NCBI GenBank assembly: GCA_016191555.1
Contig: JACPVX010000017.1
Span: forward strand, 55,706-119,705
Length of the DNA: 64,000 bases
DNA from: Bacteroidota bacterium
GTDB lineage: Bacteria; Bacteroidota; Bacteroidia; Cytophagales; Cyclobacteriaceae
Direction: 5' to 3'
Under the pieces are notes generated by a model, which saw nothing but the letters and a program-made list of their open reading frames with translations, ran no database searches and was not told where the DNA came from. Below are positions 22,944 to 29,105 of the stretch, piece after piece; position 1 is the first letter of the stretch; every line of letters starts with the position of its first letter. The translations under genes were made by a program, and so were the position numbers.

Positions 22944-23216
22944 TTCAATAGCCACCGTTGTTTCGTGGCTTGCCACTGGTGAACGGTGGCATAGAATAAA
23001 TGACTCATTACTACCCACAGCGATGTGGTGGTTAGCCACGGATGTTCGAGGGGTTGCCACGGAATGTCGGTGGCTCTTACAAAATGACCGGGGCATGTGC
23101 ACGAGTGGTTTATGTATGCCCACCGAATCTTGGTGGCTAGCCACGGGCAATCTGTGGCAACCCCTTAGTGATGTGTGGCTATGGCAAAATGACTGGTTAT
23201 ATGGACCGGAAGACTT
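22944..23216. repeat. Degenerate 21-bp tandem repeat, about 13 units
   Basis: Units in exact 21-bp register, consensus near GTGGCTAGCCACGGATGTTCG (e.g. 22965, 23028, 23133) with variant units ending AAAATGACTG (22986, 23070, 23175). Confidence 0.85.
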
Positions 23217-23699: not shown

Positions 23700-24098
23700 T
23701 TAAGGATTATTTTCTATCCCGTTATCAGTAGTAATCAGCGGGCAGATCGCACACGCCAATTTTCCTTTTTGAAAATACCAGCGGCAGGTTTTACGAATAC
23801 CGCAAGCAGGTAAGTTTATTTCTGAGTCGTTGATGTCATGTTTCATTGCATCTGTTACCCTTTGAATGACACTGCAGCCGCCAGACTTCCATTGATTACA
23901 ACCGCTCTGCACACAACGCCCCGCAAATCGAAATCGCTGCTCGGGCGACCGGCCCTTTTGAACTTCTTCTACAAAAGCAGCGTCAAGGGTCAGTGGCTTT
24001 TTTAAAATATCAACAATGCCCCCGCTGTTGACCACACCGATGAGTTGCGCTCCTGGTGCGGCAACAGAACTGGGGCATGTTTTCTTTTCGTCTTTCAT
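23700..24098 (-). CDS. Cys-rich hypothetical protein, possible metal/Fe-S binder
   Basis: CVQSGCNQWKSGGC...LPACGIRKTCRWYFQKGKLACAICPLI. Confidence 0.55.
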   Translation of the reverse strand: MKDEKKTCPSSVAAPGAQLIGVVNSGGIVDILKKPLTLDAAFVEEVQKGRSPEQRFRFAGRCVQSGCNQWKSGGCSVIQRVTDAMKHDINDSEINLPACGIRKTCRWYFQKGKLACAICPLITTDNGIENNP

Positions 24099-24104
24099 CC
24101 TTGG

Positions 24105-24329
24105 CTACCGGAATGATTTGAAACTTGATTTTTTTAGCGCTTCAATAGTCGCAAATCGTTTGATCCAAATTCCCATCCATTCCTTTGGAAAGCGGGTGCC
24201 CAAAATTGCTTTGTTATCAATTTTGGCAATGTGTCTGTTTGCTACCGCCTGTAAATCTTTGTTCAGTTCCTTCTGTTGTTTGGCGGTGAGGGGAACATCA
24301 ATAACTACTCTAAATTTTGTTGCTGCCAT
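24105..24329 (-). CDS. Small hypothetical protein (74 aa)
   Basis: ORF directly upstream of and collinear with 24098 gene; shared 33-bp leader repeat. Confidence 0.5.
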   Translation of the reverse strand: MAATKFRVVIDVPLTAKQQKELNKDLQAVANRHIAKIDNKAILGTRFPKEWMGIWIKRFATIEALKKSSFKSFR

Positions 24330-24345
24330 GGTATTTGTATTTAGT

Positions 24346-24378
24346 GCCTACTCTGGGTCGGATTTTCGGCTTCCTCCG
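24346..24378 (-). repeat. 33-bp leader repeat copy 1
   Basis: GCCTACTCTGGGTCGGATTTTCGGCTTCCTCCG. Confidence 0.7.
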
Positions 24379-24399
24379 TTTCTAAATGAATTTGTGTCA

Positions 24400-24861
24400 T
24401 CAATTCGGATCTACTCTAACATTGCCCGAAATAAATGGTCCTGTGCCGTAGGCAATTCGATCGCCATTTCGATCGTGAATGGCAAAGCCTGCCACGCGTG
24501 GCGTTTCACCATTTCCATTGTCGGCAATAAAAAACCAATAGCGTAATCCAACGGGTTGCTTTTTTGAATCGGTCTTCATTTTACCCTGACCCGTAAAGAA
24601 AATGGTGGGATTATGTTTGCCGTGGGAGTTGATCAATTCAATGCTGGTGCTGCTAAATGTTCCTTTGGCAGAATCACTCAAATCTATTTTTAGCTTCAGT
24701 GTTCCGGTAGGATAATCATTCGAAGCAGGATTAAACTGCGCAAAAACATTGAATTCAAAAATGCCGGACGATACCGCGTCTTTGCGCGTACTGATAAAAA
24801 TTTTACCGGTTCCTTCGGCCTGACTTTTTCCGGAAACATGAAATGCGGGGATGGTGGTCAT
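24400..24861 (-). CDS. Hypothetical protein, 153 aa
   Basis: Good ORF in minus-strand cluster, no signal peptide recognised. Confidence 0.55.
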   Translation of the reverse strand: MTTIPAFHVSGKSQAEGTGKIFISTRKDAVSSGIFEFNVFAQFNPASNDYPTGTLKLKIDLSDSAKGTFSSTSIELINSHGKHNPTIFFTGQGKMKTDSKKQPVGLRYWFFIADNGNGETPRVAGFAIHDRNGDRIAYGTGPFISGNVRVDPN

Positions 24862-24879
24862 ACAATTTAAATTTATGCT

Positions 24880-24912
24880 GCCTACTCTTCTTCGGATTTT
24901 CGGCTTCTTCCG
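24880..24912 (-). repeat. 33-bp leader repeat copy 2
   Basis: GCCTACTCTTCTTCGGATTTTCGGCTTCTTCCG. Confidence 0.75.
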
Positions 24913-24921
24913 TGCTGAGTC

Positions 24922-26322
24922 TTATAATGAATTGAAAAAGAGCATGCTCGGTGCGAAGAAGTACTCGCCCCCTTTTAAGTTTACAAACTGCGGAAAGCTC
25001 GCTACTTTATTAGAAGCCGCATCGCCCCACTTCGTAGGGAACGGCCCTGTGCTGGTGTGCGCTGCGCTCTCACCAATAATCGGATCGAGGCCCGCATTGG
25101 CCGATGGGAAATTGGGATTGTTGGCCCATGTCTGTTGTAAAAATTCAAACTGATTGCCAATGCTGGCTTGAAAACTTTGGAATAACAAACCCACGCCACC
25201 TTCGGGCATTAAATCGGTATTTTCAAAAGAGCCTTCTTCACGCGTGCCAAAAGGAATCCCTCTTCGAGCCATAATGTGGCTTGCCTCACTGCCATCGCGG
25301 GGGTTTACTTTTCGGATGTGTGCGTGAAAGGGACATTTCGATCCGGTTACATCGGTCTTTCCATCACCCCGATAATTATTTTTATAGTTGAATGCATTGA
25401 GCGTGCCACTCGCAATCAATCCGGCTTCATCCGATAAGGTCACGGGCGTTCCATCTTCAAAGCGCCCCACCAACATGGCTCCTGCACGTTCTACATCTTC
25501 GCCATGCAAGCCGAGCGTAAGGGCTAATTGTTTTTCGGCTGTTTTAAAGCCTTTCACATTTTGTTCCAGTTTTCTAAATACAAAATAGCTTCCAAACGCA
25601 TCGACCCCCAATGTGGCCGCATTGGGAACAAATGGATCCGCTACCAACACTTGTTTGAGCCCGAGTGGAGCAAGCGGTTCAAATCCGGTTATGCCGGAAT
25701 TATTTTCCCTGAACGTTGCCAACTCGTCTTCAAAGAAAAGAGGTTGGCTGGTGCCATCGACATAGCCAAAATGTTCGATACCATCTTTGTTATCATTTTT
25801 CAGTGCGCTACCAACTTCCGTGGTTAACACGATGGCAATGGAAGAAAGATCAGCGCGAAGTTTGTCAGCGGCATCTTCAAGGGCAGCCTGATCATGAAAG
25901 GCCAATAAGAACACCGCGTCAATTTCACCCTGAAAGGCCGGTTCCCATAAAGCGGGCGCAGGGTCGCCAATATGCGCACCCTTCATTCCTCTTTGAAAGG
26001 AGGGATCGAGTGGTGTAATGGTTTTCCCAATGTATTTAAGTCCGGAGGCAGAAAAATTTACCGTAGCAAAAATTCCTCCCGCTACGTTCTTCGATTTGAA
26101 TAACTCGTTTTCTTTTAGTTGTTGCTTGCACGATGTAATGTTGGCTGCATAGCATCGGAGCCATCTCTTTACCTCATCTGGTACGCCCGTGAACTTTACA
26201 AATATATTCGCGGTATGTTCCCGGCCGTGCCCTTTTAAGATGTTGCCTTGTAAATGAGCAAATAGATTGTCGAGGAGCATGTCCTCGGGTTTTAATGGTA
26301 GTGGGGTGTCAATAGTAGCCAT
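24922..26322 (-). CDS. DyP-type peroxidase
   Basis: LFAHLQGNILKGHGREHTANIFVKF; FGYVDGTSQPLFFEDE (GxxDG motif); RRGIPFGTREEGSFENTDLMPEGGVGLLFQSFQASIGNQFEFLQQTWAN; start MATIDTPLPLKPED. Confidence 0.9.
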   Translation of the reverse strand: MATIDTPLPLKPEDMLLDNLFAHLQGNILKGHGREHTANIFVKFTGVPDEVKRWLRCYAANITSCKQQLKENELFKSKNVAGGIFATVNFSASGLKYIGKTITPLDPSFQRGMKGAHIGDPAPALWEPAFQGEIDAVFLLAFHDQAALEDAADKLRADLSSIAIVLTTEVGSALKNDNKDGIEHFGYVDGTSQPLFFEDELATFRENNSGITGFEPLAPLGLKQVLVADPFVPNAATLGVDAFGSYFVFRKLEQNVKGFKTAEKQLALTLGLHGEDVERAGAMLVGRFEDGTPVTLSDEAGLIASGTLNAFNYKNNYRGDGKTDVTGSKCPFHAHIRKVNPRDGSEASHIMARRGIPFGTREEGSFENTDLMPEGGVGLLFQSFQASIGNQFEFLQQTWANNPNFPSANAGLDPIIGESAAHTSTGPFPTKWGDAASNKVASFPQFVNLKGGEYFFAPSMLFFNSL

Positions 26323-26343
26323 TGTATTTGGTGTTGTTATCGT

Positions 26344-26376
26344 GCCTACTCTTCTTCGGATTTTCGGCTTCCTCCG
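26344..26376 (-). repeat. 33-bp leader repeat copy 3
   Basis: GCCTACTCTTCTTCGGATTTTCGGCTTCCTCCG. Confidence 0.75.
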
Positions 26377-26424
26377 CTTTGGTGTAGTCGAAACTCCTAA
26401 AATGTTTTTGAATGATTCTTTATT

Positions 26425-26582: not shown

Positions 26583-26936
26583 ATGGCTTACACATTTAAC
26601 GGAACAGAAGGCGCACCCATTGAGCTGAAAACAGCCAAGGAGTGGGCCGCAAACTATCGGGCCACACTCAAAGACCCGAAGAACGATCGAGTAGCTCACT
26701 TCTTTGGATTTGAAATCATCCAACAGATTTTAGCAGAAGCGGATTGCGTGGGCATTCGCATTTACTACGGCATTGATGACAAAGGCGAAAAGCAACTCAT
26801 GCTGGTAGGTGCCGATAAATCGGGCGAAAACCTATTGCCGACAGAAGAGAAGGCTTTAGCAGGGGGTGGAAACATTGTAGCTGACATGTCTTTCCCTTGT
26901 CCGAGTTATTGTCCGGGCACATCTACTAGCCTTTAA
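26583..26936 (+). CDS. Small hypothetical protein (117 aa), first gene of TCS operon
   Basis: MAYTFNGTEGAPIELKTAKEWAANYRA...; good ORF. Confidence 0.6.
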   Translation: MAYTFNGTEGAPIELKTAKEWAANYRATLKDPKNDRVAHFFGFEIIQQILAEADCVGIRIYYGIDDKGEKQLMLVGADKSGENLLPTEEKALAGGGNIVADMSFPCPSYCPGTSTSL

Positions 26937-26974
26937 CCATTTTTAAGTTAAATTGTATTAAAATTCCCGCTAGG

Positions 26975-27619
26975 ATGGATAGTGTATTGATGATTGCGTA
27001 CAGTTCATTTGGCTCTATCCTTATTCCGATTTTCATTGGGCTGCCTCAAATAAAGAAGTTGACGTTTGCTTTGAAGGGTTTGCTGATTTTATGCTTTGCC
27101 TCCTTTTTAGCGGATGTGATCTGTTTGACATTAATGAAGAATGCAGTCAATAACTGGATTGTTCTAAATGTGTTCTCCATCATTCAGATAACAATCTTTT
27201 TGGTGATCTTAAATTCTGAGTTAAAGATTAAGTTAGGAAATGCAGGGCTGATCCTTCTTAGTTTTGCTTCGATCATCAGCTTATTCTATTTAGGATCTAA
27301 CAATTCATTCAACTACGTCACCAGTTATGTGGGCGGCCTTATTTTAATACTCTTGTGCTTAATCTTTTTATATCGACTGTTGATAGATTTACCAACAGTC
27401 GATATTTTTCATTATCCAATACTGTGGATTGTATTTGCAATTTTGATTTACTATGGCGGAACGCTCTTTTTGTTCCTCTTCAATAATTATCTGTTATCCA
27501 TTAACATTGTTTCGCATAAGTCCATTTGGATTTTACATAACACACTCAACATCATTAAGAATCTATTATTTGCCCTGGCGCTATGGCAACATTACAGGAA
27601 GGTGAGGTTATCTCACTGA
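26975..27619 (+). CDS. Polytopic membrane protein of unknown function
   Basis: Multiple hydrophobic helices; overlaps downstream kinase ORF. Confidence 0.65.
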   Translation: MDSVLMIAYSSFGSILIPIFIGLPQIKKLTFALKGLLILCFASFLADVICLTLMKNAVNNWIVLNVFSIIQITIFLVILNSELKIKLGNAGLILLSFASIISLFYLGSNNSFNYVTSYVGGLILILLCLIFLYRLLIDLPTVDIFHYPILWIVFAILIYYGGTLFLFLFNNYLLSINIVSHKSIWILHNTLNIIKNLLFALALWQHYRKVRLSH

Positions 27620-28377
27620 TTGCTTTAGGTAGCTCAGGAATCCTTCTACTCATTGTGGGCATTGCCGTTTTTTTAATTACCTACCAAAGGCGGATGTTGA
27701 AAGCCCACAGACGCGAAGAGCAAATCGAAAAAGAACACCAACGGGGCATGATTCAAATGGAATTTGAAAGTCAGGAGGCCGAACGCAAGCGCATTGCTGC
27801 CGACTTGCACGATTCGGTGGGCTCGCTTCTATGGGGTGCAAAATTAACGGCTTCCTATATCGAGCGCTCAGCAGAGGTGAACGAAAAAACAAAACAACTG
27901 CACGATGAATTGATGGATATTCTCGATCAATCCATTACCACCGTCAAACAAATTTCGTGGGAGCTCACACCCGAGGCATTTCAGTACTCGGGATTATCCG
28001 CTTCGGTGGAATCGCTTTGTCGCAGACTGGATGGAAAAAATATGCAGGTAATTTTTGAAGAAACCGACACCCACGTGTGGAAAGGCAAACGCGCGCTGGT
28101 GGTGTATCGCATTATTCAGGAATTGGTCAGTAATAGTATTAAACATAGCCAGGCACAATCATTATGGGTGAAACTTGCGTGGACAGCTACCACGCTGGTG
28201 GTAGATGTAGTGGATGACGGAATTGGTTTTACCATTGAAGAAAAACGCAACGGGGTAGGGTGGTGGAATATCCAACACCGCGCAGATTCCATCAACGCCA
28301 CAATTCAGGTAGGAGAAGTTCCTATGGAACACGGGGCACACATAGTACTACAGGTACCTTTGGATTATGAAGAATAG
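27583..28377 (+). CDS. Sensor histidine kinase (HisKA_3/NarX-like)
   Basis: ERKRIAADLHDSVGSLLWGAKL ... VVDVVDDGIGFTIEEKRNGVGWWNIQHRA. Confidence 0.9.
   Translation: MATLQEGEVISLIALGSSGILLLIVGIAVFLITYQRRMLKAHRREEQIEKEHQRGMIQMEFESQEAERKRIAADLHDSVGSLLWGAKLTASYIERSAEVNEKTKQLHDELMDILDQSITTVKQISWELTPEAFQYSGLSASVESLCRRLDGKNMQVIFEETDTHVWKGKRALVVYRIIQELVSNSIKHSQAQSLWVKLAWTATTLVVDVVDDGIGFTIEEKRNGVGWWNIQHRADSINATIQVGEVPMEHGAHIVLQVPLDYEE
28310..28324. promoter_or_regulatory. Inverted repeat TAGGA-GAAGT-TCCTA
   Basis: Perfect 5-5-5 palindrome within kinase 3' end, about 40 bp upstream of the response regulator ATG. Confidence 0.45.
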
Positions 28378-28996
28378 TCTCACTATTTATATTGCGGATG
28401 ACCACACGGTGGTGCGCAACGCCATGACGCGATTATTGAAAACCTTTGAGCGCATTGGCGAAGTGAAAGATGCCGCCAACGGCAAGGACCTGATCAAACT
28501 GGTAAAAGAAAAAACACCCGATGCCGTGGTGCTGGATATTGAAATGCCCGTGATGGGGGGCATCGACACGGCTCAAAATATAATCAGCCACTTTCCGGAT
28601 GTAAAAATATTGATGCTCACCATGCATACCGAAGAAGCGTTCATCAAGCGACTGATTGATTTAGGCGTGAATGGCTTCCTGGCAAAAACCACCGAGCCCG
28701 AAGAAATGGAGCGCGCCATTTATTCTATTGTGGACAATGACTTTTATAAAGGGGATTTATTGAACACGGCTGCGCTCTCTAAAAAAGTGAACGATCCCAC
28801 GCTGGAGAAGCTCAGCAACAGGGAGTTAGAGATATTAATGCTCATCTGCCAGGAGTACACCCCCGGAGAAATCAGCACGCGCCTGAACATCAGCGAAAAA
28901 ACATTCAACAACCACCGCGCCAGCATCATTGCCAAAACCGGGGCCAAGAATAATATCGGATTATATAAGTATGCCGTTCAGCACGGGTATCTGTGA
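28367..28996 (+). CDS. NarL/FixJ-type (LuxR HTH) response regulator
   Basis: Receiver IYIADDHTVVRNAMTRLLKTF...VVLDIEMPVMGGID; HTH LSNRELEILMLICQEYTPGEISTRLNISEKTFNNHRASI. Confidence 0.92.
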   Translation: MKNSLTIYIADDHTVVRNAMTRLLKTFERIGEVKDAANGKDLIKLVKEKTPDAVVLDIEMPVMGGIDTAQNIISHFPDVKILMLTMHTEEAFIKRLIDLGVNGFLAKTTEPEEMERAIYSIVDNDFYKGDLLNTAALSKKVNDPTLEKLSNRELEILMLICQEYTPGEISTRLNISEKTFNNHRASIIAKTGAKNNIGLYKYAVQHGYL

Positions 28997-29000
28997 TGCA

Positions 29001-29105
29001 GTTAGTCGTTAACAGTTAATAGTTAATGGATAATAGTTAATGGTAAATGGTTAGTAGTTAATCGTTAATCGTTAATTGTTAATGGTTGAGAGCTAATCGT
29101 TAATC
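29001..29105. repeat. 7-bp minisatellite, 15 units of GTTAATN
   Basis: Units stay in strict 7-bp register between convergent stop codons. Confidence 0.9.

Follow-up and report, generated by a model that had tools for sequence, protein, structure and literature searches.

DUF805b candidate RNA motif in front of consecutive Bacteroidota genes: a predicted pseudoknot with a probable role in translation

The closest described counterpart of the element treated here is the DUF805b RNA (RF02914), held in Rfam as a candidate motif of cis-regulatory type in clan CL00115. The motif was reportedly described by Weinberg et al. in 2017, and we know of no function on record for it; a literature search returned no mention of DUF805b, and the DUF805 papers found concern, by title, other subjects. 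Ribosomes of Bacteroidota start translation without Shine-Dalgarno pairing, and for that reason a structured element that is widespread and keeps a fixed distance to the ATG would offer a handle on translation control in this phylum.

Identity of the leader copies

The DNA analysed is a 64,000-nt stretch of a Bacteroidota genome, hereafter the window. An initial annotation had described in it three copies of a 33-bp sequence with few mismatches, and all three were recovered (Table 1), as against no match in 100 dinucleotide shuffles of the window. The sense strand of every copy is the minus strand. Scored with the Rfam covariance model, the copies align over the full 35 positions of RF02914 and exceed its gathering score of 35.6; membership is established by these scores, and the window element is therefore an already catalogued candidate motif. 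The CGGA/UCCG helix of RF02914, S1, is present in all three (in two by the model alignments, in the third by sequence), and the sense orientation 5' of protein-coding genes that characterizes the motif was found in the window and in the relatives. The association with DUF805 genes from which the name derives was not seen in the window: a Pfam search found no DUF805 gene among the window genes, and the domain was absent among the commonest 25 of 73 Pfam families in 150 proteins encoded downstream of copies. The structure line of the search model holds S1 only, whereas here a second, pseudoknot helix covaries too. This helix, together with a link to exported and RiPP-type proteins, may be an addition to the known motif. 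The Rfam match, the second helix, three further copies in the same genome and the occurrence across the phylum all go beyond the initial annotation.

Table 1. Leader elements, their parts and the genes behind them.
Feature	Position	Strand	Basis or remark
Leader element W3, 5' of DyP gene	26343..26377	-	RF02914, 44.5 bits; 33-mer at 26344-26376, 0 mismatches
W3 RNA (read from 26376 down), S1 5' strand CGGA	26376-26373	-	helices by covariation
W3 RNA, L1	26372-26369	-	
W3 RNA, S2 5' strand GCC	26368-26366	-	helices by covariation
W3 RNA, loop GAAAA	26365-26361	-	
W3 RNA, S1 3' strand UCCG	26360-26357	-	helices by covariation
W3 RNA, L3	26356-26347	-	ends in GAGUA
W3 RNA, S2 3' strand GGC	26346-26344	-	helices by covariation
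A-rich spacer to DyP ATG, 21 nt	26323..26343	-	sequence
Dye-decolourising peroxidase (DyP), 466 aa	24922..26322	-	Pfam DyP_N 4.7e-12, Dyp_perox_C 5.3e-7
Leader element W2, between DyP and 153-aa genes	24879..24913	-	RF02914, 44.9 bits; 33-mer at 24880-24912, 1 mismatch
W2 helix S1	24912-24909/24896-24893	-	
W2 helix S2	24904-24902/24882-24880	-	
A/T-rich spacer to 153-aa gene ATG, 18 nt	24862..24879	-	sequence
153-aa protein, ATG 24861	24400..24861	-	no Pfam family
Leader element W1, between 153-aa and 74-aa genes	24345..24379	-	RF02914, 42.3 bits; 33-mer at 24346-24378, 3 mismatches
W1 helix S1	24378-24375/24362-24359	-	
W1 helix S2	24370-24368/24348-24346	-	
A-rich spacer to 74-aa gene ATG, 16 nt	24330..24345	-	sequence
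74-aa protein, ATG 24329	24105..24329	-	no Pfam family
132-aa ORF, ATG 6 nt past 74-aa stop	23700..24098	-	no element of its own
Further DUF805b copies, same genome	G000:C32 9878-9912, 10964-10997, 15841-15875		

Genes behind the leaders

The genes for DyP and the 153-, 74- and 132-aa proteins probably form, in this order, one operon, with W1 and W2 in its short intergenic gaps and W3 at its head. The distance of 16-21 nt from copy to ATG given by the initial annotation agreed with the 16, 18 and 21 nt read from the sequence. The DyP protein matched the DyP2 structure 4g2c at 1e-95 (phmmer), and its start at 26322 is supported by structural homologues, whose alignments begin at residue 20 of the protein so read; a longer ORF of 506 aa is a read-through of the leader. 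The leader was also considered by eye as coding sequence and rejected, since readable frames differ among the copies and are interrupted by stops. The 132-aa ORF probably shares the leader of the 74-aa gene, to which it would be coupled. The 153-aa protein had no convincing homologue in 62 congeners and, used as a query, gave no match in a search of genome contigs.

One conserved cargo gene was rejected as an explanation of the copies: DyP homologues were found in 4 of 63 genus genomes, its own included, and the 153-aa protein convincingly in its own genome only. In three congeners (G031, G070 and G081, the last by a weak, partial match) a DyP homologue lies about 4-6 kb 3' of a same-strand element, with a P450-like ORF in G031 and G070 and a FAD-oxidase-like ORF in G031 (names by eye); DyP, element and such neighbours may form a recurring type of cluster. 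Divergent from the DyP gene of the window, positions 26583-28996 of the plus strand hold, by eye, a 117-aa gene, a membrane protein and a histidine-kinase-like/response-regulator-like pair, and a similar arrangement adjoins the G031 element. A degenerate 7-nt tandem repeat (AGTTAAT-like) lies at 29000-29097, between the response-regulator-like and a monooxygenase-like gene, and two 43-nt arms with 74% complementarity form an inverted repeat around GTGGCTA/TAGCCAC units at 23033-23181, within a short minus-strand ORF.

No family is shared by the 150 downstream proteins, the commonest Pfam family (TM2) having five members; NCBIfam models matched seven rSAM-modified RiPP precursors (TIGR04149) and three class I lanthipeptide leaders. 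By simple ad hoc rules, signal-peptide-like N-termini were called in 54 of 101 downstream proteins of at least 100 aa and in 178 of 776 neighbouring ORFs (53% vs 23%; p ~1e-9), and double-glycine leaders in 18 of 65 short downstream proteins and 16 of 599 neighbours (p ~4e-11). Defence and phage libraries gave scattered matches with no single theme among the downstream proteins, and nothing in the gene set pointed metabolically to a ligand. At G206:C59 2547-6654 and in G141, short peptides with double-glycine leaders are encoded in arrays in which every gene has an element to itself and a similar promoter-like sequence 5' of it. Some short proteins after elements have N-termini of similar look by eye: MATFRVSIS... 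(G035:C46), MPTYRVYLAY... (G141) and MAATKFRVVID... (window 24105-24329).

Position relative to start codons, and distribution

Position was scored in 198 copies, of which 104 come from the genus and 94 from 15 genomes elsewhere in the order; a start was counted where an ATG opens an ORF of 45 codons or more. Such a start lay 8-32 nt downstream of 164/198 copies in the sense orientation and of 5/198 in the antisense orientation, and of 8.2% of random flank positions. The distance from the last S2 nucleotide to the ATG had a median of 22 nt (IQR 19-25); some copies had no obvious ATG within 70 nt. These figures support the proposal in the initial annotation of a shared 5'-leader element at a near-constant distance from the ATG; the random placement or unbiased scars that a search of the genome and relatives might have revealed were looked for and not found. 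The pooled spacers are A-rich, with peaks of A at -3, -6, -12 and -13. A at these positions raises initiation in Flavobacterium johnsoniae (PMC6847099).

A same-strand ORF ends at most 80 nt upstream of 45 of the 104 genus copies, and many elements thus lie inside operons and serve internal genes; other copies are isolated and adjoin divergent genes. A promoter-like motif, TAnnTTTG, occurs 30-39 nt upstream of 14/195 copies, above the neighbouring bins, most of them preceding double-glycine peptide genes. With this motif upstream of it, the element would be transcribed, at least in those copies.

The genome itself holds six copies: those of the window and three on contig C32 (Table 1), which precede genes for proteins of 201, 253 and 748 aa and sit in a cluster with amidase, FAD-binding oxidase, lipase-like and amidohydrolase genes. 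The RF02914 model matched 40 of 63 genus genomes (23 were without a detected copy), 167 of the 292 sampled in the order and 119 of 396 in the phylum, with no match in 14 control genomes. Copies nearly identical to the window subtype were found in Cyclobacteriaceae, Cytophagales, gut Paludibacteraceae and other Bacteroidales, with unrelated genes behind them and mostly 13-26 nt before an ATG. A phage origin was rejected, as two search patterns gave one viral contig alone. A DUF805b-like copy lies on an IMG/VR contig classed as viral (L372, 12387-12422), with an ATG 22 nt on.

Predicted pseudoknot and mode of action

The copies were aligned on the letters [CT]GAAAA and GAGTA, not on pairing, which gave 165 distinct ungapped rows. 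The three inner pairs of S1 were standard in 95.2% of cells (63.8% when shuffled), in 139 cells both sides had changed, as against a mean of 41 and a maximum of 53 after shuffling, and CG, AU, GC and UA were all common at the innermost pair. S1 is part of the model by which the copies had been found, and its pairing is on that account partly selected for. S2, which joins the three nucleotides before GAAAA with the three after GAGUA, is absent from the Rfam structure line and is thus the cleaner test, not favoured by the model. Its pairs were standard in 95.2% (79.0% when shuffled), 75 cells had changed, where shuffling gave 22 on average and at most 33, and GC, UA, AU and CG are all present at the outer pair. 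A slide of one column lowered pairing to 40-55%. In 40 copies chosen for diversity the covariation score was 0.602 (0.164 shuffled), a value reached by 0/500 shuffles, and all slid versions failed. Both helices are short, and in one copy of the genome (on C32, before the 748-aa gene) S2 contains a C-A mismatch.

Comparison of the copies shows the predicted element to be a compact H-type pseudoknot, with S1 of 3-4 bp and S2 of 3 bp (NCY/RGN), because the strands interleave in the order S1, S2, S1', S2'. The CGGA/UCCG hairpin of the initial annotation is accordingly present as S1, although not as a simple hairpin, S1 being only part of the pseudoknot. Of the loops, L1 is mostly 4 nt, GAAAA is 5 nt, and L3 is variable and ends in GAGUA; the stretch from GAAAA to GAGTA varies in length, measuring 6-12 nt in almost every copy. 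Folding of single leader strands was no better than for shuffled sequence, with programs that cannot form pseudoknots, and the evidence for the structure is therefore comparative.

We consider it likely that the element is a cis RNA leader through which a shared trans factor exerts translation-level control of the next gene. The DUF805b leader probably tunes translation of the genes behind it, and a shared factor probably reads the elements. Each copy would be a cis-acting RNA in the leader of the gene behind it, or in the intergenic gap before that gene, its 3' edge followed by about 15-25 nt of A-rich spacer and then the start codon. The pseudoknot would so be placed at the upstream edge of the initiation region occupied by the 30S subunit, from where it would control translation initiation of that one gene and not transcription. 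Less certainly, the constant loops may be read by one trans factor, be it a protein regulator that binds RNA or a small signalling molecule, in which case the unrelated genes that bear the element would make up one regulon, mostly of exported accessory proteins, with double-glycine-leader peptides, lipoproteins, secreted enzymes and DyP as its cargo. In the window, DyP, the 153-aa protein and the 74/132-aa pair would each be controlled separately inside one probable operon. An RNA rather than a DNA element is indicated, because the stem letters change freely with pairing kept. As the element often serves internal operon genes, and a terminator would not fit in the A-rich spacer of 15-25 nt, translation control appears to be the most economical reading.

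A constitutive translation enhancer or mRNA-stability element without ligand or partner, which would open the ribosome-binding region or block 5' nucleases where an exported protein is expressed at a high level, explains the position, the structure and the unrelated genes without a regulator. We nevertheless hold it unlikely: [CT]GAAAA and a GAGTA-like stretch occur in 100/104 genus copies, and loop letters so nearly invariant exceed the needs of a simple barrier, while the 23/63 genus genomes without a detected copy suggest a dispensable system. Binding of a transcription factor or a sigma factor to the DNA itself, as operator or promoter, would suit the high conservation of the 33 bp in the window subtype and the fixed distance to the gene, but is very improbable given the variable length of the GAAAA-GAGTA stretch and the separate promoter motif 30-39 nt upstream in a subset, and was rejected on the compensatory changes that vary the stem letters and keep their pairing. 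Slightly less credible again is a recombination or cassette-insertion site that folds as a single strand, like attC, and is intergenic because genes insert there. Folded-strand covariation is also a feature of attC and so agrees with such a site, as do the presence of one element before unrelated accessory genes and its tandem arrays (window; G206:C59); the tight ATG spacing with its translation-initiation pattern and the solitary copies beside divergent genes speak against it. A recent, functionless local duplication scar of this genome, for which a slight likeness of the window copies beyond the 33-mer might be cited, may be dismissed: the relatives contradict it, since in genus, order and phylum alike the element has compensatory changes and keeps its distance from the start codon.

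A wider version of translation-level control by a shared factor is put forward tentatively, as a possibility to which we give less than even weight: a Bacteroidota-wide DUF805b translational regulon of exported and competition-related proteins, in which one trans factor or signal would act via GAAAA and GAGUA and which accessory genes would join by acquiring a leader of about 55 nt. If true, RiPP/double-glycine peptides, lipoproteins and secreted enzymes would be its cargo; the enrichment of exported peptides and secreted proteins makes this a concrete regulon hypothesis with testable targets.

Among known RNA elements, the preQ1-I, SAM-II and SAM-V riboswitches resemble the predicted DUF805b pseudoknot in strand order (S1, S2, S1', S2'), in small size and in their place beside the start region; in SAM-V, translation is controlled by an H-type pseudoknot (PMC6061858). 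The Rfam models of these three gave no match to the window copies up to E = 5 to 10. Unlike them, the DUF805b pseudoknot contains no Shine-Dalgarno sequence, and its genes have no matching metabolic theme. In the operator of phage T4 gene 32 mRNA, an upstream pseudoknot is followed by an unstructured A/U-rich initiation region, and the bound protein represses translation. The DUF805b leaders are similarly composed of a predicted 5' pseudoknot and an A-rich initiation region, a likeness that may extend to mechanism by analogy only; gene 32 is a case of self-regulation of one gene, whereas the DUF805b element stands before many unrelated genes.
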